IMG/VR virus record: IMGVR_UViG_3300028430_000557
Span: 1 to 24,472 of that record
Direction: 5' to 3' (one strand)
Source: a virus
Length of the DNA stretch: 24,472 nt
The translations under genes were made by a program, and so were the position numbers. Shown here piece after piece: positions 9,740-22,581 of the stretch (position 1 is the first letter of the stretch; the number at the start of each line of letters is the position of its first letter). A model generated the notes under the pieces. That model ran no database searches. It worked only from the letters and a program-made list of their open reading frames with translations, and had not been told where the DNA came from.

Positions 9740-10177
9740 CTACGTCTCGTCGCCCCCGGTGTGCACCACGTCCGAGAGATCAATTCTGCCCGCGTCAAAA
9801 GTAGCTCCATCGCCCCTGACGAGCTTGACCTCGATATGTTGGCCGTCTTCTGACAGTTGCCCCATTAAAGGCCCCACCAGTTCAACCTTCACCCGGCCCT
9901 TTTTCTTAAAAGCAACGACCGACCCGTTTTTCGATACGCGGATTTTTCCCGAAGGCACACGATGCTGGCGAATCCAACCCTCGCTGACGCAGTATTCGAT
10001 GACCCTGGGAGCAATTACTCCGTCGATCTTGACGCTAATGCGCCGCATGAAAATAGGGCAGTGCCATTCGCTGCTCGGTTCAACCGACAAACGGTCTGGT
10101 ACTGCCTCTGACTTGTACCGGTCTTTCGGCGAAATGGTGCGCCAGTCGAATGGCGGGACGTAGTCAGTTCGTTCCAT
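9740..10177 (-). CDS. Hypothetical protein, 145 aa
   Basis: This is the last gene of the - strand block; it overlaps the end of the helicase gene by 14 nt and has a GGAG site nine nt before the ATG. The sequence has a polar N-terminus (PPFDWRTISPKDRYKSE), an IxVKIDG strand, and a C-terminal half of short basic beta strands (KIRVSKNGSVVAFKKKGRVKVELVG). The basic strands could bind nucleic acid, but no family is recognised. Being in the same unit as purZ-mazZ-datZ and the helicase, it may serve replication. Confidence 0.6.
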   Translation of the reverse strand: MERTDYVPPFDWRTISPKDRYKSEAVPDRLSVEPSSEWHCPIFMRRISVKIDGVIAPRVIEYCVSEGWIRQHRVPSGKIRVSKNGSVVAFKKKGRVKVELVGPLMGQLSEDGQHIEVKLVRGDGATFDAGRIDLSDVVHTGGDET

Positions 10178-11678
10178 AGGGTAACACTCCAGTTTCGCGG
10201 GCGTAGCCCATTACAGCTGCTGCGATATCTTCCTTACGCTGCAGAGCTTTAATCACTGCTGCGTCTTGGCTTGAGGCTATGAAGTCACCGATAGCGATTG
10301 GCGCAGATTGTCCAGCTCCTTGATTCCGTTCCTCGCACTGCCCCCGGTCGTTCAGGGAGTAGTTGTTTTCGTAGAACCACGTGGTGTGGCACGGGTCGCT
10401 TGGGTTCCCCATGAGGGTGTGGCCGTAGCGCAAAGCTTGTTCTTGGCCTATGAGAACCCGACATGACGGGTCCTCGTTGAACTTAGCTTTCTCACTAATT
10501 CGGTCACGCTCGTTTTCTTTGTGCCAAGCGTTGCCCCGTATCACAGCAGGGTTGAATTCGACGAGGACCCTCTCAAGAATATCAATCGAATGTTGATAGT
10601 GACACACTACGATGATTTTTGTAGGGATCTCGTCCGTTATGATCCGCCGTATTTCAATCGCCTTGGGATTTTTCTGCGGCGGCATCAACTCATGTACGTT
10701 GCCATCTTCGTCGATTATGAACCCGGAAGTGATCTGCTGCATTTTCATGAGCTTTGTGATGACTTGGTCGGCGGTTACGACGGTCCCAGTTTCAAGCTCT
10801 ACCAAGAAATCCTGGCGCATCTGGTCATACAACTTCTGTTGTTCTGGTAGAAGCTTAATCATCCTCGGATTGACGTAATCGACGCCTGGAGTTTTAAGCC
10901 AGTCCGATTTCCGAGCAAAGAAAGAACACCGCGCCAAGATTGCTTGCAGTTGGTCTTCGTTCTTGGCCCCTAGAACAACACGGCCTTGGAACCCACCCAT
11001 TTGGCAGAACATATTTCTGAACGAAGCAGGCATCACGCCTTGCAATTGAGCGATAAAGCGCAATTGCCCCCACAAATCATGGGGTCCTTGGGTCACTGGT
11101 TTCCCAGTTAAAACACGTCGAACAGCGCAGACTTTGGCCAGGGCTATAGCCTCTTTGGTGTCCACGGACTGCGGGTTTTTGATCGACACACTTTCGTCCG
11201 CCCCGATGACGGTACGGTCACCCAGCACATCGGCCAGGATAGAGAGCGTGGCTTCGTATCGGAGAGCTTCGTAGTTGACCGCGATCAAGCCGCCTTTGTC
11301 TTTGTTTTTGAAGATAAAGTCTACGGCCTTCTTCCGGTTGTTAGAATCCAGTGCCATAGCGTCAGCTGGGTAGCCGAACTTTTCAGCTTCAAGTGCCCAA
11401 TCCACCTTGAAAGCATTAGGTGCCAGAACAACCTGCCACCTAAAGTCATAATCTCTTCGCAGCAGCGCCCCCTCGTTAAGGAATGTCGGTGTTTTCCCGA
11501 CACGCGGCTCTAGGAAGTGGCCCCACCCCACAGCGGGGCGGTCACCGGGGTGGCCGATAATTCGGCGGTGAAACGGCGTGTCGTCCACGGTGTCCATGGT
11601 CGCAACACCTTTATATGAGCGACGCAAAGCTTCAAGTTGGGCCTCGCGGGGTTCGCAGTTTAAAAGCCAGTCAATCAA
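10164..11678 (-). CDS. SNF2-like DEAD/DEAH helicase
   Basis: This 504-aa superfamily 2 helicase/translocase starts at TTG (11678), overlapping the datZ stop by 4 nt, with GAGGA nine nt upstream. Motifs in order: I PRVGKT (58-63), VNYEALR (134-140), II as DESV (161-164) in VIGADESVSIKNP, III LTGKP (190-194), IV KIIVVCHYQ (354-362), V RVLIGQEQALRYG (407-419), and VI QCEERNQGAGQ (447-457). Motif VI normally reads QxxxRxxRxGQ; here the second Arg, the expected arginine finger, is Gly454. Such phage proteins are used for replication, recombination or transcription-coupled remodelling. The coding overlap places it directly in the purZ-mazZ-datZ unit. Confidence 0.85.
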   Translation of the reverse strand: MIDWLLNCEPREAQLEALRRSYKGVATMDTVDDTPFHRRIIGHPGDRPAVGWGHFLEPRVGKTPTFLNEGALLRRDYDFRWQVVLAPNAFKVDWALEAEKFGYPADAMALDSNNRKKAVDFIFKNKDKGGLIAVNYEALRYEATLSILADVLGDRTVIGADESVSIKNPQSVDTKEAIALAKVCAVRRVLTGKPVTQGPHDLWGQLRFIAQLQGVMPASFRNMFCQMGGFQGRVVLGAKNEDQLQAILARCSFFARKSDWLKTPGVDYVNPRMIKLLPEQQKLYDQMRQDFLVELETGTVVTADQVITKLMKMQQITSGFIIDEDGNVHELMPPQKNPKAIEIRRIITDEIPTKIIVVCHYQHSIDILERVLVEFNPAVIRGNAWHKENERDRISEKAKFNEDPSCRVLIGQEQALRYGHTLMGNPSDPCHTTWFYENNYSLNDRGQCEERNQGAGQSAPIAIGDFIASSQDAAVIKALQRKEDIAAAVMGYARETGVLPYGTN

Positions 11679-12280
11679 AACGGCAGATCCTCGATATAAC
11701 CATTTTCGACGTCAGACGTCAGCGGGTCTGTTTCGGGCTTGTTGGCGGGCAGCTGGAACCCCATACGTAAGCTGTGTACTTCCTCTTCGACCACTGCCGC
11801 CATTTCCAGGGGCAGCGCAGCACGTCGTACAGCGGCATGAAAGCGCTCGAGGGTGACGGAGTATTGGCGAACGATGAGGCTGTTGCCCATAGAAATTTCC
11901 ATAGCTACATGGAACAACTCATCGATTAGGTCCGCGACCTTCACGACAGCCAGAACATCCTCGTCATAAACAGGTATCTCGAAGCCCATAATCTCTGCTT
12001 GTTCGATTTCGTAGGCATCGAGTTTGTCTGGGTCAGTCACGGCCCTTTTGACCGGACCGGGCATATCCCCCGTTCGGGCTTCAACTGCGTCGTGATACAG
12101 TGCACATTCGACCGCTTGCAACCGCATGTTAAGTGGCCAATGCCACTTGTAACGGTTAACTATTTCTGTGGTGTATAGCGCTACAAAGTAGCTGTGTTCC
12201 GCCACATTTTGTGTGCGGAAACGGGGGGCGATCTGCCACCTGGGGACAAACGCCAAAAGACGGAAGTGATGGCTAAACAT
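11675..12280 (-). CDS. datZ: DatZ-type HD dATP phosphohydrolase
   Basis: DatZ removes dATP (dATP to deoxyadenosine plus triphosphate in characterised members), so adenine is kept out of phage DNA and Z is used instead. The 201-aa HD-domain protein shows the YfbR-like layout: RW at 14-15, EHS with H29, the HD pair H63-D64 within LYHDAVEARTGDMPGPVK, E67 and D72, and D117 in VKVADLID. These match the metal and substrate residues of the YfbR/DatZ group. I chose ATG 12280 because GGAGG lies six nt upstream; an in-frame start at 12307 is less likely. It overlaps mazZ by 8 nt and is followed by the helicase gene with a 4-nt overlap. On its own it could be a general dNMP phosphatase; next to purZ and mazZ the DatZ assignment is strong. 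Confidence 0.9.
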   Translation of the reverse strand: MFSHHFRLLAFVPRWQIAPRFRTQNVAEHSYFVALYTTEIVNRYKWHWPLNMRLQAVECALYHDAVEARTGDMPGPVKRAVTDPDKLDAYEIEQAEIMGFEIPVYDEDVLAVVKVADLIDELFHVAMEISMGNSLIVRQYSVTLERFHAAVRRAALPLEMAAVVEEEVHSLRMGFQLPANKPETDPLTSDVENGYIEDLPF

Positions 12281-12581
12281 TTTTGGCCTCCAGACCAATA
12301 TTAGCAACGATCATGGCGAAGTTGGCTACGTCCGCAGCTTCAAACATGATACACGTGGTGGAACCTTCTGCGAGCGCTCCGTCGAGTTCTTCAATTTCGC
12401 CCCGCAGAAGTTCCATAGTTTTTTCGAGATCCATTCCCTCCCATCTACCTTTGCTGGCGTTCTTGCGCAGCTTGTAGATCATGGCGTCAAAGAACCGCTG
12501 CAGATCAGGGCGCAGGTGTGACAATTCGTTTGGCACACTGATCTGCAACATCTTGGCCCCCTGGGCGAATCCCTCAGCCAT
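12273..12581 (-). CDS. mazZ: MazZ-type MazG-like nucleotide pyrophosphatase
   Basis: MazZ hydrolyses (d)GTP to (d)GMP and pyrophosphate, supplying the dGMP that PurZ uses. This 102-aa all-helical protein shows the MazG core: a KGRWEGMDLEKTMELL helix, EIEEL (ExxE, near residues 62-65) and FEAADVANFA (ExxD, near 81-84), the metal-binding acids of the family. Single-domain MazG length is normal. The purZ stop and the start overlap (GTGATG at 12584-12579); GTG 12584 and ATG 12581 are almost equivalent. An internal ATG at 12551 has a stronger AGGGGG site and would give 92 aa with all motifs retained. The specific nucleotide cannot be read from the motif; it is assigned from the purZ-datZ neighbours. 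Confidence 0.88.
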   Translation of the reverse strand: MAEGFAQGAKMLQISVPNELSHLRPDLQRFFDAMIYKLRKNASKGRWEGMDLEKTMELLRGEIEELDGALAEGSTTCIMFEAADVANFAMIVANIGLEAKNV

Positions 12582-13729
12582 CACGCGACCTGCCGAACGT
12601 CTCGGGAATAAGGCCCAAAGCCGAGAAGAATGGTGGGGGACGGACCATTCGAGCCCATTACTCTACGCCAGTCTTCGTCGATATTGTCGAGAAGGGCGTC
12701 CAGCATGGCCGCGCTCAAATAGTTACAGAAATTCAGGAAGATCACGTCAGGCTGGTTTGCCGCGATGCACTCCCGGAATTGGACGCGTGACCACGTAAAC
12801 ACCCGGCGCACTCTCTTCGTTACTGTGGTCAGTTCGGGTTCGAGGCCCAGCGATTCCCAGCTGACCTCGTTTTGGTCCTCGTAGCATCCGCCCGACGACC
12901 CCTGGGTGTTTCCAACCCTGATTGGGAAGGTGCGGAAACAGGCCACGACCTTGCGCACCTTATTGTACGGTATACGGGCGTCCGATATGGCTTGCATGAC
13001 CGTGCATTCCCTGCTGGTCACATTCGGATAGAACCTAGCCGAATTAAGGCCGAGAGAGAAGCCTTGGGCAGTTTCGACAAAGACCACGTCCTTGTCCCAC
13101 CGCCAGAAGTCGTCCCATTCCCGAGCACCTTCTGCGAGCGGGGGCAACATGGGACGGTATTCTTCAAACGCGACTTTGCCAGTCCTCATGACCTTATTGG
13201 CAATCGCGGGACCGATTCCTTTCCCCGTGCCAGCAATCCGTCGCAGCGTGTTCTGATCCTCGATACGGTCGTTCTCAGTGATTACCGCCGCATTGGGGTG
13301 GATCATAAGCCTCGAAGGCGGTATGCCTGACGCAGCGTGTTCTTTTCTCAGAATGTCGCTGTCAATCACTGAACCTGCGTTCAGAAGAGTGTATGGCTTG
13401 TGCCCCAGACGTTCCAAGAACACTGAGGCCACGGGGATTTGTTGAGTCATGATTTTCTCAGCAAACAACCCTCTGCCAACTACAAATTCGTTGCCCGCAT
13501 CGGGAACATTGTCGGCAGTGAATTCCGTCGCATCGAGATAGGCAGTATGGCCCGAGTTGGGGCCAGCGTTGGTCGTGATGATGTTCGGCACCCTCCCGAC
13601 CAAGTGCGCGTATTCGGCTAGCACCCCGGCCATCAGGCCTTTTCCGGTAGAGCCGAATTGACCATCCACTAGGACGTATGCCCCAGGTTCCTTGAACCAT
13701 TCGGGCAGGTTGATAGACTTGTCGAGCAT
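12581..13729 (-). CDS. purZ: PurZ, deoxy-aminoadenylosuccinate synthetase
   Basis: PurZ joins aspartate to dGMP, the committed step to dZMP (2-aminoadenine); host PurB then releases fumarate. The 382-aa protein is shorter than bacterial PurA (about 430). Seen motifs: P-loop GQFGSTGKG (23-31), where the catalytic Asp of PurA (GDEGKGK) is Ser27; NSGHT with the conserved His61; GTGKGIGPAIANKV; a TAQG segment then YPNVTSRE (GAQG and YPYVTS in PurA); and LNFCNYL (332-338), where the guanine-reading Asp of PurA TKxD is Asn336. The Ser is the known hallmark that lets PurZ accept the 2-amino group of dGMP. GGAGGA lies five nt before the ATG and a strong promoter is just upstream. It is the first gene of purZ-mazZ-datZ-helicase. 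Confidence 0.95.
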   Translation of the reverse strand: MLDKSINLPEWFKEPGAYVLVDGQFGSTGKGLMAGVLAEYAHLVGRVPNIITTNAGPNSGHTAYLDATEFTADNVPDAGNEFVVGRGLFAEKIMTQQIPVASVFLERLGHKPYTLLNAGSVIDSDILRKEHAASGIPPSRLMIHPNAAVITENDRIEDQNTLRRIAGTGKGIGPAIANKVMRTGKVAFEEYRPMLPPLAEGAREWDDFWRWDKDVVFVETAQGFSLGLNSARFYPNVTSRECTVMQAISDARIPYNKVRKVVACFRTFPIRVGNTQGSSGGCYEDQNEVSWESLGLEPELTTVTKRVRRVFTWSRVQFRECIAANQPDVIFLNFCNYLSAAMLDALLDNIDEDWRRVMGSNGPSPTILLGFGPYSRDVRQVA

Positions 13730-13753
13730 TGTAGTCCTCCAGGTTGACTTAAC

Positions 13754-13782
13754 AGTATAGCACGAGGATATTGGCGTGTCAA
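13754..13782 (-). promoter_or_regulatory. Sigma70 promoter for the purZ unit
   Basis: On the - strand TTGACA (13782-13777) is followed by exactly 17 nt and TATACT (13759-13754). TGC stands just before the -10, giving a TGn extended -10. Predicted start is near 13747, leaving a leader of about 18 nt with the ribosome site. It lies in the 57-nt gap between the DUF6378-like gene and purZ. Confidence 0.85.
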
Positions 13783-13786
13783 TCCC

Positions 13787-14047
13787 CTATTTAGGAAGCC
13801 TGTCCTCTACGAGTTTCGCGTATCCGGCTATGTCGTGCCAGTTGTCCGCGTAGTTAGGGTCGCCGGAAAGAGCCCTCGCCAACTTGTGGAGAATAAGAGT
13901 TGTTCCCTCGCGCTGGGTATCATCCATACGGAACCAGCCGGAAGTTCCCCTAGCCACGACCATGAAATCCTGGCTAATTTGGGCCACGTCTTTGAAATCC
14001 CCATATCGATCAGCGCGGGTCTTGAGGGTGTTGTTCAATTCAGACAT
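13787..14047 (-). CDS. DUF6378-like small phage protein
   Basis: The 86-aa product starts at ATG 14047, with AAGGAA about six nt upstream; a longer frame back to 14155 adds Arg-rich, non-conserved sequence inside the nuclease gene. The pattern RADRYGDF near the start, a middle Gln/Leu helix, a KLARALSGDP segment and a DNWHDIAGYAKLVED ending fits the DUF6378 family seen next to phage nucleotide and replication genes, usually with the DxWxDIAGY signature. This family resembles small helical nucleotide-binding proteins, but no activity is established. It lies just before the purZ promoter. Confidence 0.7.
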   Translation of the reverse strand: MSELNNTLKTRADRYGDFKDVAQISQDFMVVARGTSGWFRMDDTQREGTTLILHKLARALSGDPNYADNWHDIAGYAKLVEDRLPK

Positions 14048-14070
14048 ATTCTGTTCCTTCCTGTCCCGCC

Positions 14071-14562
14071 TCACATAGGCGTTATTCTGGCTATGCCCAA
14101 ATGCTCTAGCAGGGGCTTCAAGTTGTAGTAACCTCCGACACCCCTTTCCACCCACCGCGTGGGGTCGGCCACATACCCGGCGTCGAGCCTGTACGACACG
14201 TCGGAAAAGCCTCGCATGTTGGTATGCACGGCCACAAGACGGTGTTTGCCTTGGTGAACAAGGGCCACGAGCACCCCAGAAGCTTTTCTGTAGGGGGTAT
14301 AGGGGTGCTGGCCTTCGTGGTATACCTTGCTGATACCGTGCAATTCATACTGTTGTTTCGGAGTTACGTTGATCTGCCGGTCGAAGTCATCTGCGACCGG
14401 GCCAAGGTCTTTAATCTCCAAAACACACGGCATATACGGGAACAGAGCCACAAGAAGGTCGGGGATCCCGACTGTAAACCTATTGGTTAACTTGTGGCAG
14501 TAGCCATTGTCTTTTTTCACAGACGCCCGTATTTTCGCCTGCACGTCAAGTTCTTTACTCAA
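14071..14562 (-). CDS. VRR-NUC-like PD-(D/E)XK nuclease
   Basis: This 163-aa protein starts at TTG (14562) with GGAGGT five nt upstream and overlaps the preceding gene by 8 nt. It has the nuclease core of the VRR-NUC/PD-(D/E)XK type: KLTNRFTVGIPDLLVAL with D35, then CVLEIKDLG with E49 and K51, and VTPKQQYEL (66-74), the Q-containing helix seen in this group. Such enzymes cut branched or ssDNA/dsDNA junctions in phage replication and recombination. In a Z-DNA phage it might process Z-containing intermediates or act on host DNA; neither is shown by sequence. The C-terminal half (90-163) is not recognised. Confidence 0.75.
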   Translation of the reverse strand: MSKELDVQAKIRASVKKDNGYCHKLTNRFTVGIPDLLVALFPYMPCVLEIKDLGPVADDFDRQINVTPKQQYELHGISKVYHEGQHPYTPYRKASGVLVALVHQGKHRLVAVHTNMRGFSDVSYRLDAGYVADPTRWVERGVGGYYNLKPLLEHLGIARITPM

Positions 14563-14761
14563 GTTCTACCTCCCTCGGTGGAAGCCCAGGAAACTCGGGT
14601 GTGACCTGGGGGTGTTCTACCCTACCAATCAAGTAAGGCGTCATGTATTGCTCGTGGCCCTCCCCAACCATGTGGAAGCCCCAACTGCTGATTGTCCCAC
14701 GCCCTCCGCACTTCTTCATCAGAGTGATAATCTGCAGGGGGTCGAACGTGCAGTCGGTCAT
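14555..14761 (-). CDS. Hypothetical 68-aa protein overlapping an out-of-frame gene
   Basis: ATG 14761 has GGAGGGG six nt upstream, a strong ribosome site; an in-frame GTG at 14803 would add 14 residues. The product (about MTDCTFDPLQIITLMKK, then SSWGFHMVGEG and IGRVEHPQVTPEFPG) looks like folded protein, not random sequence, and its stop overlaps the TTG of the nuclease gene. It shares 140 nt with the 3' end of the next upstream gene in another frame. Both frames look protein-like, so this is either a true overlap or an assembly frameshift. No family is recognised. Confidence 0.5.
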   Translation of the reverse strand: MTDCTFDPLQIITLMKKCGGRGTISSWGFHMVGEGHEQYMTPYLIGRVEHPQVTPEFPGLPPREVELE

Positions 14762-15026
14762 CAAGCTCCCCTCCACCACGTACAGCGTTTTCTTTAGAGA
14801 CACGTGCGTACTCCGAGGGTTCTGCGGGTTCCATTTCGGACCAGCGGTTTTTGTAGGCCAGCCAATCGGCGATTTTCATCCATCCGCGCCCAGGCGTCTC
14901 CGCATGGGGGTCAGGTTCAAACCACGCGTTCGACGCTGGCAAAAATTCGAACTCTTGCCAGTTATCCGCTAAGAAGACCCAAGCCTTCCCTGCGCGCCCG
15001 TCCGCTATGCCGTACAACGTAATCAT
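14622..15026 (-). CDS. Hypothetical 134-aa protein
   Basis: The gene starts with a 4-nt ATGA overlap with the preceding stop. The N-terminal part (MITLYGIADGRAGKAWVFLA, then FEFLPASNAWFEP) is aromatic and protein-like. The C-terminal third (from about residue 88) shares DNA with the 68-aa gene. A Trp-rich segment (GRGWMKIADWLAYKNRW, about 47-63) is a local feature. No family is recognised. The gene lies among small genes between dpoZ and purZ. Confidence 0.6.
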   Translation of the reverse strand: MITLYGIADGRAGKAWVFLADNWQEFEFLPASNAWFEPDPHAETPGRGWMKIADWLAYKNRWSEMEPAEPSEYARVSKENAVRGGGELDDRLHVRPPADYHSDEEVRRAWDNQQLGLPHGWGGPRAIHDALLDW

Positions 15027-15277
15027 AGCTCAATCCAAATCATGTTTGGACAACGCGCCCGTAGTCGTATTTCTTCCAACCATTTATGGCTGTCACGGTT
15101 ATACCGAAAACTTTCGGTAATCACCACCTTGTTAAATCGGAGCCCTGCCAACGCCGATACTCCCATGGAAGGGTTCCAAGCGAACATAGTCGACTCAGTA
15201 TCTGTCAGGTGCCTTCCGTTACGGAAGCCAGCTAATTCTGCGTGATTATGGTGGCCAAACACCCACAATTCGCGCAT
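15023..15277 (-). CDS. Hypothetical 84-aa protein following dpoZ
   Basis: ATG 15277 overlaps the dpoZ stop (TGATG) and has AGGGGG four nt upstream. An upstream extension to 15343 lies inside dpoZ and looks like non-coding frame. The product (MRELWVFGHHNHAELAG, then FNKVVITESFRYNRD and a Trp helix) has a His-rich N-terminus and an alternating alpha/beta look, but no family is recognised. Translational coupling to dpoZ suggests a replication-linked role. Confidence 0.65.
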   Translation of the reverse strand: MRELWVFGHHNHAELAGFRNGRHLTDTESTMFAWNPSMGVSALAGLRFNKVVITESFRYNRDSHKWLEEIRLRARCPNMIWIEL

Positions 15278-17187
15278 CACGCCCCCTTTATGCCGTAGAC
15301 CACTTCGTTGACCATGCTCTCGCCGTAGGTGGCCACGGCCCAATTAGGCCCAAACCCACTATCCATGACGAATGGTACACGCAGATTAAAGGGGGGTCCT
15401 TTCACGTCCACCGCCATTTCCTTCATCCTCTTAGCCAGTTTGGTACCGGCATCCCCGAGAGGGGCCTGGAAGATGATTGAGTCGTGAATTGTCATGATCA
15501 GGTGCGCAGCGTCGTTTTCTTCCTGCTCAAGCCATTCGTCGATGGCCAGCAATTTCACCTTGATGACGTCAGCATTACCACCTTGGATTATTTTAGACAC
15601 AGCCTTATAGGCGAAGCGGGGGTTGTCAAGCCTGCATCTTCTGCCGCACACCGTGCGGACGTACCCGCGCTGCAATAGATTGTTCTTGGCCGTGATCTGG
15701 AACTGCCGGATCCCTGGAAACAGATCGAACCACCAATCGTGGTATTGGCTGGCCTTTTCGAGAGGCCATTCCATGTGTTCGGCGAATGTTTTCTTCTGCA
15801 TGCCCGTAAGAATGCCCATATTCATTCGCTTGGCCGTCGGGTCACGTTCGACGTTCATACCTTCCGCAACAACATGGTGCATGTCCAGCGGAGGATCGTT
15901 GTTGTACCCATCCAACAACCGGGGTTCGCGGGAGTAGTGGGCGAACAAGCGCGGCTCACACTGGCTGTAGTCGTTCTCGTACAGTTGGAACCCCTCATCC
16001 GGTATAAAACACCGACGGAACCTGGGGCCAAGCTTTTTATTGCGCTTGGTGATGGCCTGCATATTCGGTTCGGAACACGACAAACGACCCGATATGGTAC
16101 CACCTTCGTCGGATTTTAGCTGGTTGAGCTGTGCATGAACCCTGCCCTTGAATACGTGGCTGTCGCGTAAGGGGTATGCGAATTTGGAGAGCAGGTTCGC
16201 GTTCTGGCGCAACGACATAATATTTTGCCCAGGCTCGCTTTGTCGCAGGAATTTCTCCGTGAAGCTCGGGTTACCAGCATCGGTGGTGGGCCAGTTAGTG
16301 ATCCCGTGCAGTTCCATATATTCCTTAGTCTGCTTCGGGCTCCGTTCGTTAAAGTCCTTCGGCAGAGCGGACTTCGCAACAACCAGCTCTTTCTCGATAG
16401 CCGAAATCAACTCGGGTAAGTATTGCTCGTCTACCTTCCACCCCCGGCGCTCCATTCGGAACAGCGTCCAAATTAGCCGACTTTCGACCTTATGGATGAA
16501 TTCCTGGCTGCTGTCTACTTCGTCTCTTTCCGTGATTAGTGCATATTGCGCTTCTCGCAACAGAAGAGTGGTTAGACCGTCGCCCTTGGCGTAGTCCATA
16601 ACGAGGTCGTCGTTCCCTGGCATCCTCCAGAAATGTTCCATCACGCTCTCGGGTCTTGTCGAGGGTAACGGCACCCCAAGCGTCCGAGATATGTGTTCGT
16701 AAAGCTGATCTCCCTTCTTGGGAGTTACACCCCGGCGCAACGCGCAATTGGCGAGAGAGTATGAGAACTGGTGTTCATCCAGCATCGGTTCGTTGATGCC
16801 AGTATCTTCACACTCGCGCCCAAGCATGATGCCCGCATTCGCAGCCATGTGCATGTCGAATTTGGCGTGGTGCATTACGGTCAACAGACCTTTTCTGCGC
16901 CTTTCCTCGAACGCCTTAGCGAGGAACCCCTCGAAGTAATGGGGCTGTATTTTGTCGGTGGACGTCTTGAGCGGGGGACACGCGGGGTCGTATAGATTTC
17001 CCCCACCCCCGTGCCTCACGGGGATGTAAAAATTGTTGATAGCGTCGAGGGTGATTACGTACCCGACTGGCTGGTGGATCTTCCAATCAAGACCCGAAGT
17101 TTCAGTGTCGAACGCGATGATCGGCGCGTCTCTCACTATTCTCAAGGCTTTTTGAGCCTGTTCCCCCAACGTCATGCTGCTGGCCAT
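15277..17187 (-). CDS. dpoZ: DpoZ-type family A DNA polymerase with 3'-5' exonuclease
   Basis: This 636-aa PolA-family polymerase would copy the phage genome with dZTP. Exonuclease: FDTET (D27, E29), HHAKFD (D111), and YAKGD (D203), so proofreading appears intact. Polymerase: SGRLSCSEPNMQ, motif A NDYSQCEPR (D406), motif B AKRMNMGILTGM (K453), and motif C IHDS (D569). Unusual: Met457 and Thr461 occupy the positions of the usual Phe and Tyr in NFGxxYG, and Ser follows HD where Glu is typical. ATG 17187 was chosen over 17226 because the longer form adds a basic tail over a GC hairpin zone; the ribosome site is weak. It lies in the same - strand block as purZ-mazZ-datZ, as in other Z phages with DpoZ. 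A general PolA role is certain; the Z preference is inferred. Confidence 0.85.
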   Translation of the reverse strand: MASSMTLGEQAQKALRIVRDAPIIAFDTETSGLDWKIHQPVGYVITLDAINNFYIPVRHGGGGNLYDPACPPLKTSTDKIQPHYFEGFLAKAFEERRRKGLLTVMHHAKFDMHMAANAGIMLGRECEDTGINEPMLDEHQFSYSLANCALRRGVTPKKGDQLYEHISRTLGVPLPSTRPESVMEHFWRMPGNDDLVMDYAKGDGLTTLLLREAQYALITERDEVDSSQEFIHKVESRLIWTLFRMERRGWKVDEQYLPELISAIEKELVVAKSALPKDFNERSPKQTKEYMELHGITNWPTTDAGNPSFTEKFLRQSEPGQNIMSLRQNANLLSKFAYPLRDSHVFKGRVHAQLNQLKSDEGGTISGRLSCSEPNMQAITKRNKKLGPRFRRCFIPDEGFQLYENDYSQCEPRLFAHYSREPRLLDGYNNDPPLDMHHVVAEGMNVERDPTAKRMNMGILTGMQKKTFAEHMEWPLEKASQYHDWWFDLFPGIRQFQITAKNNLLQRGYVRTVCGRRCRLDNPRFAYKAVSKIIQGGNADVIKVKLLAIDEWLEQEENDAAHLIMTIHDSIIFQAPLGDAGTKLAKRMKEMAVDVKGPPFNLRVPFVMDSGFGPNWAVATYGESMVNEVVYGIKGA

Positions 17188-17310: not shown

Positions 17311-18150
17311 TCAGTATTCCTGGCTGGTAGCTCCGCCAGACTGCACGTCGCCCTCGTTCCCGACACTCTCTTCGTCCGCCACCTTGTAGCTGGTGAACTG
17401 TTCGGCGATCTTCTGGCACCGAGCAAATTCTTCCTCGGTGGCGAAGCCGTGCGAGATGAAGTCGTAGTTCTTGAACGGCCCCTCGTCACCCGTTTCCTCG
17501 ACAACCCTCGCCCGGAAGCGCATGGCTTGGAGGGGCAGGTTGCGGAAGGTGATCTTGGAGTTGAGGTCCTTGCCCTTCTTGGTCTGGGAACGAGCGAGGC
17601 TCATGATGATGGGCGAGAATTGCGGGAAGTCGGGCAGGTAAACGAGATACTCGTACACCAGCACAGCGGCGGGCTTGCTGTCAGGATCGCCCTTCACGGA
17701 AGACCCGAACTTGTCGAGCCCAGACCCGGCGACCGTGGGGGCCGTCTTCCAGGTCTGCTCTTCCTTGACGTTCTTGAGCTTCACGCGGAATTCGCCGTTC
17801 GGCGGCTCCCAGTGAATTCCGTCCTCGGCACGGGCCATCACCTTGCGCGGATCGCCCATAGGCGCCATGAGCAGGTATTTCTTGCGGAAGGAACAGACGA
17901 TGAAGTCGAATTCAGGCCCGATCGGTTCGCCGAGAACGTTGTGCCAGAACAGCCCTGCCTTGGCCTCGTCGAAGGCGGTGACTTCGGCTGAAATAGCCTG
18001 CAGAAGCTTGATCCGGGGAAGAATGAGGTCGGTGGCGTCAACCCCGCTCAGAACTGCGCCCTGGCCCTGCATATTTTGCAGGTAGGCAGGGAGGGAGGCG
18101 TTTCCAGCCACGGCGACTTCGTTGCTGGCCTTGTTGGTTTGGTTCGTCAT
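17311..18150 (-). CDS. Conserved phage replication-block protein, candidate ssDNA-binding
   Basis: The 279-aa product starts at ATG 18150 with AAGGA nine nt upstream; a longer frame to 18489 adds Arg-rich non-genic sequence. It has a polar N-terminus (1-20), a LPAYLQNMQGQG segment, then VDATDLILPRIKLLQ and AGLFWHNVLGEPIG, an RKKYLLMAP strand, ARAEDGIHWEPP, and an acidic C-terminus (VADEESVGNEGDVQ). The acidic tail after a beta-rich core and the position between PrimPol-helicase and polymerase genes resemble ssDNA-binding proteins. The family type is known in phages, but I cannot prove DNA binding from motifs. Confidence 0.6.
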   Translation of the reverse strand: MTNQTNKASNEVAVAGNASLPAYLQNMQGQGAVLSGVDATDLILPRIKLLQAISAEVTAFDEAKAGLFWHNVLGEPIGPEFDFIVCSFRKKYLLMAPMGDPRKVMARAEDGIHWEPPNGEFRVKLKNVKEEQTWKTAPTVAGSGLDKFGSSVKGDPDSKPAAVLVYEYLVYLPDFPQFSPIIMSLARSQTKKGKDLNSKITFRNLPLQAMRFRARVVEETGDEGPFKNYDFISHGFATEEEFARCQKIAEQFTSYKVADEESVGNEGDVQSGGATSQEY

Positions 18151-18278
18151 GGTATTTCGTCCTTGGTTCCAGAATGTTAGCACTCTCGCTCTCGTCACAC
18201 CACTTGCAGCAGGTGTCGCTGTCGCTGACTTCCACCACCACCCCGGTGTTCGGGAAGGTGGCGAAGCCGTTGTCCGGG
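18151..18278 (-). other. 128-nt gap with a Cys-rich open frame
   Basis: No start-proven gene is present. One - strand frame stays open and reads protein-like, with DSDTCCKWCDESES near 18232-18191, but it has no ATG; GTG codons near 18247 lack a clear ribosome site, and it runs into the 279-aa gene in another frame. It could be a decayed small gene or one with an unusual start. The AAGGA at its left edge belongs to the 279-aa gene. Confidence 0.35.
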
Positions 18279-18773
18279 TTACTTGACCTTCGTTACGCTG
18301 GTCAGTTGCATAGACGACATTTTGAACTTGTCGTCTGGCATTTCGAGCCCCAGGTCTTCGACCCGCTGCCGCGCGAATGACGAGAGCGTCCCTGAGTTGA
18401 CGGTCTCCTGAATAAGCTCGGCAGCTTGTTGCTGGGGGTCGCGCAACCAATCGAAGGCTTCCGCCTTTTTCTCGGGGATGATTGCACAATTGATGCGGGT
18501 TGAAACACCTACCCGACGCTTAATATCGTCGAGGGTGATCGTGCGGATCTTCCGCTCCAGCATCATTTCGGGGATGACGTGTCGGCTGGTGCGTTCAATC
18601 ACCGCCAACATGGCTTTACGCGCCTCGTCCAGACGCTCATATTCGTCTTTGACGCGAATGTAAAGTCTAGCAACATCGTCAGGGTTGCCGGTGGCGTGAG
18701 CTTTGTCGAAGGCTTCTTGCCCTTCGATTACCGCGCGTTCCAACCGCACGGCCAGTTCTTCCAGGATGCCCAT
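18279..18773 (-). CDS. Conserved phage protein, 164 aa, helical
   Basis: ATG 18773 has GAGGA six nt upstream and a strong promoter about 50 nt before it. The N-terminal half is a long charged helix (ELAVRLERAVIEGQEAFDKA, about 5-25, then ARLYIRVKDEYERLDEARKAM). A middle segment has IPEMMLERKIRTITLDDI and RVGVSTRINC, and the C-terminus is Ser/Thr/Lys-rich (SSMQLTSVTKVK). It resembles conserved replication-block proteins that accompany the 279-aa family; no enzymatic motif is seen. Confidence 0.6.
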   Translation of the reverse strand: MGILEELAVRLERAVIEGQEAFDKAHATGNPDDVARLYIRVKDEYERLDEARKAMLAVIERTSRHVIPEMMLERKIRTITLDDIKRRVGVSTRINCAIIPEKKAEAFDWLRDPQQQAAELIQETVNSGTLSSFARQRVEDLGLEMPDDKFKMSSMQLTSVTKVK

Positions 18774-20109: not shown

Positions 20110-22581
20110 TTAATATTCCTCGGATGCGGTTGGGGGGATTACGATTTCTTCAAGCTCGTCATTCGTAGCTTGATCGAGAAGTTGTGACACAATATTCCCG
20201 TGTCTTTTCCGTAGAAAATCTACGATATCCTCTTTGCTTGGGAACTTGTGCACCCTCACGCGGTCTTTCACGGTCTGGCCGGATTTCGAGTCCGTGTACT
20301 GGACGGAGACTTGCCCGCCTTTCTCAAGTGCCCCTTCCGGAAGCACCTGCCGAATGAGCGTCCCGATTGAACCAGAATACACCGATCTGCCATGTTGACG
20401 CACAAAATCTCGGTAGTCTGCTTCCAAAACCGGCAAGCATACCCTATCCGGCCAGCTGTCTCTCCGTACAGTATCGTATCTTTTGTCATTTTCATCGATC
20501 TTGGCGCTATTGTAAGCATACCACCAGTGAACATGATTTTTGGCGTCTAACGGGAAGCCTTGGGCAACACGGTTGATCATCCAGCTAACTTCCGGATCAA
20601 CGCCCATCCGCTGGATTTGTTGCTTGATATCGGTGGATAGGGGCCTACGTATATTCTGCTTGTCGTACTTCCTGTCCAGGAACCACCTGAGAATGTGGGG
20701 AAGGTGCGCTGCTGTCCACTTGCGGATCTCCGACCAGAACCCCAGGTTGTTGATATACTTGTCGCTCACGTGCAGAACTGTGAACCTACGCTCATTCGGG
20801 TTCGGATCGATGAAGATGGGGTTGTTTTTGTCGTTAGACGTAAACAGGTAATGGATATGATTCGGTTTGTTGAAGGCATTGACGCCCTTGGGCTCGATCA
20901 CAATAGTCTCATCAGTGATCAACGACTTCAACTTAGCGGCCACACCCTTCTGATAGCTATGAACAGCCTCATCGCACTGGAAGAAAATCTTGTTGTCTGC
21001 CAGTTGGTTAAACTTCGACGTAAGCGTCTCAATATCGTTGGTTTTGGCATAGTGGTGATCACCTACTATTTTCCCTAGAACCCATTCGCCGAGAAACGAC
21101 TTGCCCGCCCCCTGCTCGCCGATCAACACTAAACATGTTCCAGGCTTAAAGGCTGGCTGTTGGAACATGTCGGCACACCAGTCTAGAATCCAGCAAGCAT
21201 GTATTTCGTTGCCATTCGCCAGCACGTTAAGCACATAATCGAGAAAAGGCTTTATATCCTCGTCTGTTACGGGCTGGCTATGGGGCTCGACGGCCCAACC
21301 TCTGAATTGATTGACGTAGTTTTTGCCTCGCCAGTCGACTATTTGTTCTTGCGTGGTGGGATCGAATGTAAGGCCTCGCACCTGACGGAAGGCGGTAGAG
21401 TTAAACAGCAAGGTAGATATGTTTACCAGCTTGTTGCCAACGGTAATCTTCCTACCACCGAGAGAATTCGTGGCTTGATCCTTGGTCATCCAGGGCGAAT
21501 CATGCCCCTCCCTCACTAATTCAAGGTCGATAACCTTACCTTCTTTGTACCAGATGACGAACTGCTCGGTAAGCTTTTCTAGCTCGATGATGCCGTCGTT
21601 GTCGGACAGTAGGCGATATAGAGCCCTCAGGACTTTTTCCCCGTCCAGTCCTATCAGCTCTGCCAGTACCTTGCCCCCCGTCACTTTCGCGGTGGGGTCG
21701 TTGTTCAGCTTGTTCCAAGTGTTCTCGAAATTGAGCTGTCTCTGCCTCTTGTCCTTGCTGTTGGTGTCGGCTAGCTTAAGAAGATTTTGGAATATTTCGC
21801 TCGCGTCATCTTCCGTCAGTTGGAACACGTCTTCTTTAAGGTCGCTCTCGTGCAACACTCCGTTCGCGATCAGCGAATTCTGACGTATGCGCCATAGCAG
21901 CCCACCTATGGCCAGAGACATGTCATTCCGGACACCGTCGCTAAAGTAATTGGCCAGTAAGGCTGTAGCTTGCGCCATCCTCACCCGTTTTACCAGATAC
22001 CACGTCGCGATGTGCGCCGCCGAAACCGACGTATCTACGTCCTGCGACCATTCGACCATTTCGTCGAAGTCTGCCCTATAAGACCCCGGCATAACAGTAA
22101 ACAGCGCATTTTCAGGCCTCCCGCCCCTGATCTCTACAGAATAGTTGCTGATGTTGGGATCGTCGCCATTGTCCCTATTCCATCCGGGGGTTGGCGTCCC
22201 GATTTTCAGGCTTTTCATATAGCGGAGAATAGGGCCGTGGATATCCCTATCGAAATCTTCGTGGAGAACGTACACCCTGTGAGAACGGGGTTTACTGGCT
22301 CTTCCCCATTCCCAGGGGGTCCTCGGCAAAAACATGTCCAGGGCGGGCTTGATGAAGGGTACGTTACTGTCTTCGTCAATGTCGACATATTTGCCGAAGA
22401 ATAGAGCCCCGACATTGAGCTTCGTGTTGTTTTCCAGCTGTCTCAAGAGCGCCGGTATATCGGCACTCATGGCGGTTCTGGGGTCCCAGTCCGAAAAAGG
22501 GTCCTTGCGGCCCTCCTGTACCTTGACCGGTATCAAGCCAGTGTTACGCAGAAACTGCAGGCTCGTGGCGCGATGATCCAC
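20110..22581 (-). CDS. PrimPol-helicase fusion (AEP primase-polymerase plus SF3-like helicase)
   Basis: The 823-aa protein joins a primase-polymerase-like N-terminus to a helicase. N-terminal AEP features: VDIDED (D67, D69) as the DxD metal motif, RSH (S100-H101) as the SxH motif, and VEIRGG (E150) with the family loop VMPGS. Helicase: Walker A GEQGAGKS (488-495), Walker B IFFQCDEA (532-539, D537-E538), a TSND sensor (581-584) and ERRFTV with Arg fingers R598-R599, as in DUF5906/D5-type SF3-like helicases. It starts at GTG 22581 with GAGGGG seven nt upstream. Such proteins prime, extend and unwind phage DNA; the Z phage S-2L also uses a PrimPol. Here a PolA-type polymerase is present as well. 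Confidence 0.8.
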   Translation of the reverse strand: MDHRATSLQFLRNTGLIPVKVQEGRKDPFSDWDPRTAMSADIPALLRQLENNTKLNVGALFFGKYVDIDEDSNVPFIKPALDMFLPRTPWEWGRASKPRSHRVYVLHEDFDRDIHGPILRYMKSLKIGTPTPGWNRDNGDDPNISNYSVEIRGGRPENALFTVMPGSYRADFDEMVEWSQDVDTSVSAAHIATWYLVKRVRMAQATALLANYFSDGVRNDMSLAIGGLLWRIRQNSLIANGVLHESDLKEDVFQLTEDDASEIFQNLLKLADTNSKDKRQRQLNFENTWNKLNNDPTAKVTGGKVLAELIGLDGEKVLRALYRLLSDNDGIIELEKLTEQFVIWYKEGKVIDLELVREGHDSPWMTKDQATNSLGGRKITVGNKLVNISTLLFNSTAFRQVRGLTFDPTTQEQIVDWRGKNYVNQFRGWAVEPHSQPVTDEDIKPFLDYVLNVLANGNEIHACWILDWCADMFQQPAFKPGTCLVLIGEQGAGKSFLGEWVLGKIVGDHHYAKTNDIETLTSKFNQLADNKIFFQCDEAVHSYQKGVAAKLKSLITDETIVIEPKGVNAFNKPNHIHYLFTSNDKNNPIFIDPNPNERRFTVLHVSDKYINNLGFWSEIRKWTAAHLPHILRWFLDRKYDKQNIRRPLSTDIKQQIQRMGVDPEVSWMINRVAQGFPLDAKNHVHWWYAYNSAKIDENDKRYDTVRRDSWPDRVCLPVLEADYRDFVRQHGRSVYSGSIGTLIRQVLPEGALEKGGQVSVQYTDSKSGQTVKDRVRVHKFPSKEDIVDFLRKRHGNIVSQLLDQATNDELEEIVIPPTASEEY

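Follow-up and report, generated by a model that had tools for sequence, protein, structure and literature searches.

Does a phage locus that carries predicted genes for 2-aminoadenine (Z) synthesis belong to a virus with Z in place of adenine in its DNA, and is the polymerase of that locus part of the system? We addressed these questions for the IMG/VR record IMGVR_UViG_3300028430_000557, a linear fragment of 24,472 bases that was analyzed whole (the window). A preliminary description, made from the letters of the sequence, had credited it with a complete Z gene set (purZ, mazZ, datZ and a PolA-type dpoZ), where "complete" refers to the known gene list only. We consider it highly likely that the window comes from a tailed phage related to Ochrobactrum phage vB_OspP_OH (OH; Wolominvirus) that replaces adenine by Z in its DNA. 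The four genes were located on the minus strand, with the motifs ascribed to them. They had been called neighboring genes, which is correct for purZ, mazZ and datZ; the polymerase gene is near but not adjacent, as several open reading frames (ORFs) separate it from purZ. The features on which the argument rests are as follows.

13754..13782, minus strand: sigma-70-like promoter TTGACA-17-TATACT, 11/12 consensus match, just upstream of purZ
12581..13729, minus strand: purZ, predicted succino-2-amino-dAMP synthase, PurA superfamily
12273..12584, minus strand: mazZ (MazZ-2-like), predicted (d)GTP pyrophosphohydrolase; start GTG 12584 or ATG 12581
11675..12307, minus strand: datZ, predicted HD dATP triphosphohydrolase; likely start ATG 12280 with GGAGG just upstream, alternative TTG 12307
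10164..11678, minus strand: SNF2-type helicase, final gene of the overlapping purZ-mazZ-datZ-helicase run
15277..17187, minus strand: Pol I (family A) of the OH-like clade; ATG at 17187, upstream GTG 17226 possible; 3'-5' exonuclease residues intact, not DpoZ by signature

Predicted PurZ, MazZ and DatZ

Chance similarity is excluded by the E values of the matches to PHROG 2-amino adenylosuccinate synthetase (PurZ, 6e-59), PHROG dATPase (DatZ, 2e-19) and Pfam Pol A (the polymerase, 2e-55), together with the same gene order in about 70 contigs. Tree, residues and synteny support the PurA-like protein as PurZ, with the reaction predicted accordingly from its relatives, of which the best solved ones are phiVC8 PurZ and S-2L PurZ. 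The preliminary description had named a position among ordinary PurA as the outcome that would speak against this assignment. Instead, the protein grouped with phiVC8, S-2L and SH-Ab in one phage PurZ clade (support 100/99.8), and PurA, PurZ0 and rhizobial paralogues fell outside. Within this clade, OH-like sequences form a clade (100/99) that is sister to the phiVC8/S-2L/SH-Ab clade. One rhizobial outgroup row was mis-trimmed in the main tree (30% filled), and a second, larger PurZ tree, built quickly, also backs the placement.

The catalytic slot, which holds Asp in E. coli PurA, is occupied by Ser27 within DGQFGSTGKG in the window and by Ser in 71/71 OH-like PurZ sequences. We rejected this serine as proof of PurZ, as it also occurs in a PurA-like protein of a rhizobial plasmid that falls outside the clade. 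We compared the pocket residues with the dGMP and donor-pocket list for S-2L PurZ (PMC8342488) and found them largely kept (S27, T28, N58, H61, T62, T168, R182, Q222, R271, V272, T301-T304 and R308). The donor base pocket, N333-F334-x-N336, is of the ATP/dATP type (N-F-x-N/Q). About 40 OH-like PurZ sequences of one subclade (including L081, L040 and L053) carry S/T-H-x-D rather than N-F-x-N; this motif resembles the T-K/H-x-D of PurA (TKLD, THLD) and suggests a predicted donor switch back to a guanine nucleotide. Two rhizobial loci came up alongside: a Sinorhizobium medicae conjugative plasmid (L098:2989-4029) encodes a PurA-like protein whose catalytic slot also holds Ser (QFGSEGKG) and which does not belong to the phage PurZ clade, and a Rhizobium leguminosarum plasmid (L101:263-2466) has a short PurA-like gene flanked by folE and purB, possibly a biosynthetic cluster.

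The HD protein has H38, H72-D73 and D126, and it keeps 14/14 of the residues tested against S-2L DatZ (PMC8065100): R23, W24, I26, Q33, A36, H38, H72, D73, E76, G80, P85, K87, K123 and D126. Counterparts of all S-2L metal ligands and catalytic residues (H34, H66, D67, E70 and D119; K81 and K116) are therefore present. The DatZ-typical W20, I22, Q29 and A32 correspond to W24, I26, Q33 and A36, the last two of which are replaced by E and S in YfbR; in S-2L DatZ, the Ile serves to exclude the 2-amino group (PMC8065100). The best PDB match is nevertheless E. coli YfbR, and the DatZ tree, with a single YfbR outgroup, has weak deep branches. The MazG-like protein carries the acidic metal ligands E63xxE66 and E82xxD85 and is 45% identical to OH MazZ (E = 6e-20), which has been classed as MazZ-2 (PMC8342488); matches to ZP6 and K300-type proteins were weak. 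An AlphaFold2 model (mean predicted local distance difference test score, 87.6) matched the fold of OH MazZ with an E value of 1e-7. At the position of S-2L R83, OH and phiVC8 MazZ have Arg, and the window protein has a Lys nearby, where the alignment is uncertain. We regard it as MazZ-2-like, with predicted (d)GTP pyrophosphohydrolase activity. Residues and synteny back both the datZ and the mazZ assignments of the preliminary description, the latter also through similarity to OH, just as its purZ assignment held.

Probable co-transcription and the proposed pathway

The overlap reported among purZ, mazZ and datZ was confirmed, its extent depending on the start codons chosen: purZ and mazZ share 1 nucleotide (nt) with ATG 12581 or 4 nt with GTG 12584, and mazZ and datZ share 8 nt with ATG 12280 or 35 nt with TTG 12307. 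The datZ and helicase genes overlap by 4 nt. The promoter-like site, which carries TG ahead of its second hexamer, ends ~25 nt before the purZ start codon; the match is unique in the window and occurred in 0 of 100 shuffles. A near-consensus promoter and gene overlaps make co-expression a sound conclusion, and the three genes and the helicase gene are probably co-transcribed from the promoter directly before purZ.

From the characterized relatives we infer the following reactions. MazZ would convert dGTP (or GTP) to the monophosphate, and PurZ would join dGMP to aspartate at the expense of ATP or dATP; the Z deoxynucleoside triphosphate (dZTP) would then be completed by host PurB, a guanylate kinase and nucleoside diphosphate kinase. 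DatZ would remove dATP, and the phage Pol I would copy the genome with dZTP. Production of both dZTP and Z-DNA by this phage is thus very probable. Both the exchange of Z for A and the resistance to restriction enzymes anticipated in the preliminary description would follow from the characterized pathway.

Gene losses among OH-like relatives

Relatives were found by a scan with the window/OH PurZ pair; an earlier single-sequence scan of viral contigs had given nothing. We recovered purZ in 70 viral contigs and one probably mislabelled contig of a metagenome-assembled genome (MAG), nearly all with the conserved replication block. The MAG contig (L097; JAHFKN010000011.1), filed under "Gottesmanbacteria", is phage DNA from the same subclade as the window and probably a binning error.

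Among 71 OH-like rows, the window and OH included, datZ is present in 30, absent in 34 and cut off in 7. Mapped on the PurZ tree, its absence from 34/64 informative rows takes no fewer than 7 changes. No DatZ was found anywhere in eight whole records of 36.8 to 45.1 kb (L044, L047, L056, L064, L069, L077, L084 and L092), and 10/10 controls have it. All datZ-less loci carry TP-type MazZ, and 15/15 loci with RW-type MazZ retain datZ. Inspecting by eye the ORFs in the gaps of the datZ-less phages, we recognized no datZ substitute. One lineage (L033, L034, L035, L036 and L057) has purZ and datZ and no mazZ in the record portions examined. Relatives lacking datZ or mazZ thus reveal dispensable pathway steps.

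A purZ-linked polymerase without DpoZ signatures

Several results weigh against a genome in which Z replaces adenine. Window PurZ (225 bits) and OH PurZ (241 bits) both score under the NCBIfam NF038379 cut-off of 300, and phiVC8 (397), S-2L (350) and BUCT555 (322) score above it; the cut-off seems to have been set on the other PurZ clade, leaving out the OH-like one. Window MazZ lies above no Pfam gathering threshold, and the closest PDB fold for its model, the MazG-related 2yxh, reaches an E value of 0.03 only. In the papers examined we found no nucleoside analysis of an OH-like phage, nor, in PMC7139368, a passage on modified OH DNA. The loss of datZ in many relatives means that parts of the gene set are not indispensable. 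Finally, the polymerase is without DpoZ signatures. With the DpoZ model NF038380 (cut-off 500) it scores 298 bits and two ordinary phage Pol I score 299 and 315, compared with 909 to 939 for true DpoZ, and the phiVC8-type insertions 2 (helix O) and 3 (O1-P) are absent.

The R440-K451 span holds 5 to 6 residues in OH-like polymerases versus 12, and the 466-495 span holds 11 versus 29 to 31. The helix-O Tyr-to-Phe change is the sole mutation common to both known DpoZ subfamilies (PMC8599892); the window polymerase lacks this Phe and has Thr, as do 90/94 OH-like rows. The phiVC8-like L455 and G548 substitutions are likewise missing, with Met and Ser in their place. At phiVC8 positions 455, 459, 548 and 583, OH-like polymerases (94 rows, some near-duplicates) have Met/Leu, Thr (90), Ser (93) and Ser (93); phiVC8-like DpoZ (n = 11) has Leu, Phe, Gly and Ser/Glu; and non-Z Pol I (n = 83) has Phe/Leu, Tyr (77), Asn (81) and Glu (80). 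In trees, OH-like polymerases (100/99), phiVC8-like DpoZ and non-Z Pol I form three separate clades with no fixed branching order among them. All of these comparisons were made without the phiJL001 polymerase. The 298-bit hit was rejected as support for DpoZ after non-Z polymerases scored alike. The assignment as dpoZ is therefore not supported, given the model score, the missing insertions and helix-O Phe, and the separate clade; by the sequence tests run, the enzyme is not DpoZ. Its description as a proofreading PolA-type polymerase stands, as the 3'-5' exonuclease D/E/D is retained, together with the motif C HD.

Wherever it could be judged, the OH-like polymerase occurs together with purZ. 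A search with the polymerase brought 65 newly fetched loci, some of them contigs already recovered through PurZ; 57 have purZ and 8 end before its position, so that all informative loci agree (57/57). We therefore regard OH-like Pol I as a candidate third Z-associated polymerase lineage. Tentatively, and at somewhat less than even likelihood, we propose that the Pol I with which OH-like phages copy their Z-DNA became adapted to Z on an evolutionary line of its own, as the third enzyme of this kind. In it, Thr replaces the helix-O Tyr, and Ser replaces both the motif-6 Asn and the motif-C Glu; at these positions phiVC8-like DpoZ has acquired Phe, Gly and, in part, Ser. In Pol I, the motif-6 Asn touches the DNA minor groove, the site of the extra amino group of Z, and its change is plausible as part of a Z adaptation. 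Since datZ or mazZ can be lost while purZ stays, the polymerase may bear most of the discrimination between A and Z. The phiVC8 DpoZ structure yielded no single determinant of the choice of Z over A (PMC8599892). The OH-like clade, the third Pol I clade with a link to Z, has no DpoZ insertions and is altered at the same active-site positions, which makes it a natural comparison for Z selectivity.

It is possible, if rather doubtful, that Z replacement is partial or mixed: dZTP would be made, Pol I would not discriminate, and DatZ alone would exclude A, as in S-2L, perhaps incompletely. This would fit the missing signatures and a DpoZ model score equal to that of non-Z Pol I. Klenow does not tell A from Z, and S-2L, with its non-selective PrimPol, shows that Z-DNA does not require a Z-selective polymerase (PMC8342488, PMC8065100). 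However, the strict purZ linkage and the near-invariance of OH-like polymerases at non-classical active-site residues argue against it, and datZ-less relatives would be left without a known way of excluding A. We think it unlikely that the window polymerase shares its ancestry with phiVC8-like DpoZ and is itself a DpoZ, its insertions lost or never gained. A constrained tree joining the two groups was not rejected (approximately unbiased test, P = 0.285 and 0.352 in two tests), and the positions at which they differ from ordinary Pol I coincide, but unconstrained trees hold three well-supported clades, the replacement residues are unlike (Thr versus Phe, Ser versus Gly), and profile scores do not place DpoZ above non-Z Pol I. 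Ordinary nucleotide salvage with normal A-DNA, by a PurA paralogue, a MazG house-cleaning enzyme and a YfbR-like nucleotidase, accords with the nucleotide recycling proposed for these genes by the OH authors (PMC7139368), with YfbR as top PDB match and with the rhizobial Ser, which makes Ser alone no proof, but is very improbable given the PurZ clade (100/99.8), an ATP-type donor pocket rather than the PurA TKxD motif, the DatZ-type Q33 and A36, and an operon order shared with characterized Z phages.

Neighboring genes

Genes for a tape measure protein, an endolysin and further probable tail proteins occupy the plus strand up to ~9.6 kb. The replication block follows on the minus strand: primase/helicase, two small proteins, gp33-like and gp34-like proteins, Pol I, small ORFs, DUF6378, purZ, mazZ, datZ and SNF2 helicase. 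Its members beyond those listed above are as follows.

20110..22581, minus strand: primase/helicase (DUF5906, VapE-like), first gene of the conserved replication block
18279..18773, minus strand: Pam3 gp33-like protein; the OH counterpart is annotated as a Gam-like host-nuclease inhibitor
17311..18489, minus strand: Pam3 gp34-like protein, member of the conserved block
14622..15026, minus strand: conserved hypothetical protein, between pol and purZ in most OH-like loci
14071..14562, minus strand: conserved neighbor with a weak phrog_93 (endonuclease family) match; the OH counterpart is annotated as a putative nuclease
13787..14155, minus strand: DUF6378 protein with ATG 14047 as the likely start; the gene immediately precedes purZ in most OH-like phages and is common in non-Z phages too

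All 71 OH-like purZ rows in the first set have DUF6378; in phiVC8, ZP6 and BUCT555 a relative is encoded close to purZ, and S-2L has a copy. The same profile found no match in three further OH-like loci (L106, L139 and L164). We rejected DUF6378 as a Z-specific fifth enzyme, given how commonly Salmonella and Klebsiella phages carry it; it showed no profile similarity to MazZ, and a fold search gave no match. Some relatives bear a "phosphofructokinase" label in public records. Downstream of the helicase, the window has a DUF3297 gene (9740-10177) that we found in none of the other loci of the first set. Several relatives (L064:5987-6703, L069:6253-6906, L047:5948-6676, also L056 and L085) encode secreted proteins with PEP-CTERM-like sorting signals at the end, between pol and the nuclease-like gene.

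Comparison with known Z systems

The window adds a probable Z-genome phage of a largely ordinary kind, in which the polymerase is the novel question. Its PurZ belongs to the sister lineage of every characterized PurZ, of which OH is the only isolate in our set, alongside many IMG/VR contigs. OH (NC_070933) shares the order primase, Gam-like, gp34-like, Pol, nuclease, DUF6378, PurZ, MazZ, DatZ and SNF2, with identities of 46 to 49% for PurZ, 45% for MazZ, 39% for Pol and 23 to 32% for DatZ. Unlike the window, it has an additional small gene between mazZ and datZ and a DUF6378-purZ gap of just 1 nt, which leaves no promoter between these two genes. By its morphology OH is a podovirus, whereas the window encodes a long tape-measure-type protein.

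phiVC8 and SH-Ab 15497 have the three metabolic steps in the same order with identical catalytic residues, but window PurZ lies in a sister clade, and the window polymerase has neither insertions 2 and 3 nor the L/F/G signature of phiVC8-like DpoZ. S-2L shares the overlapping purZ-mazZ-datZ run, the equivalents of DatZ W20, I22, Q29 and A32, and the lack of DpoZ; it has MazZ-1 and PrimPol only, where the window has a MazZ-2-like protein and Pol I. The Wayne/Pterodactyl PurZ0 phages (DutZ, DmtZ, DUF5664 and DpoZ-1) resemble the window in having a PurA-family enzyme with Ser and a Pol I, but their PurZ0 falls outside the PurZ clade, they carry neither datZ nor mazZ, and their polymerases are distant in the tree.

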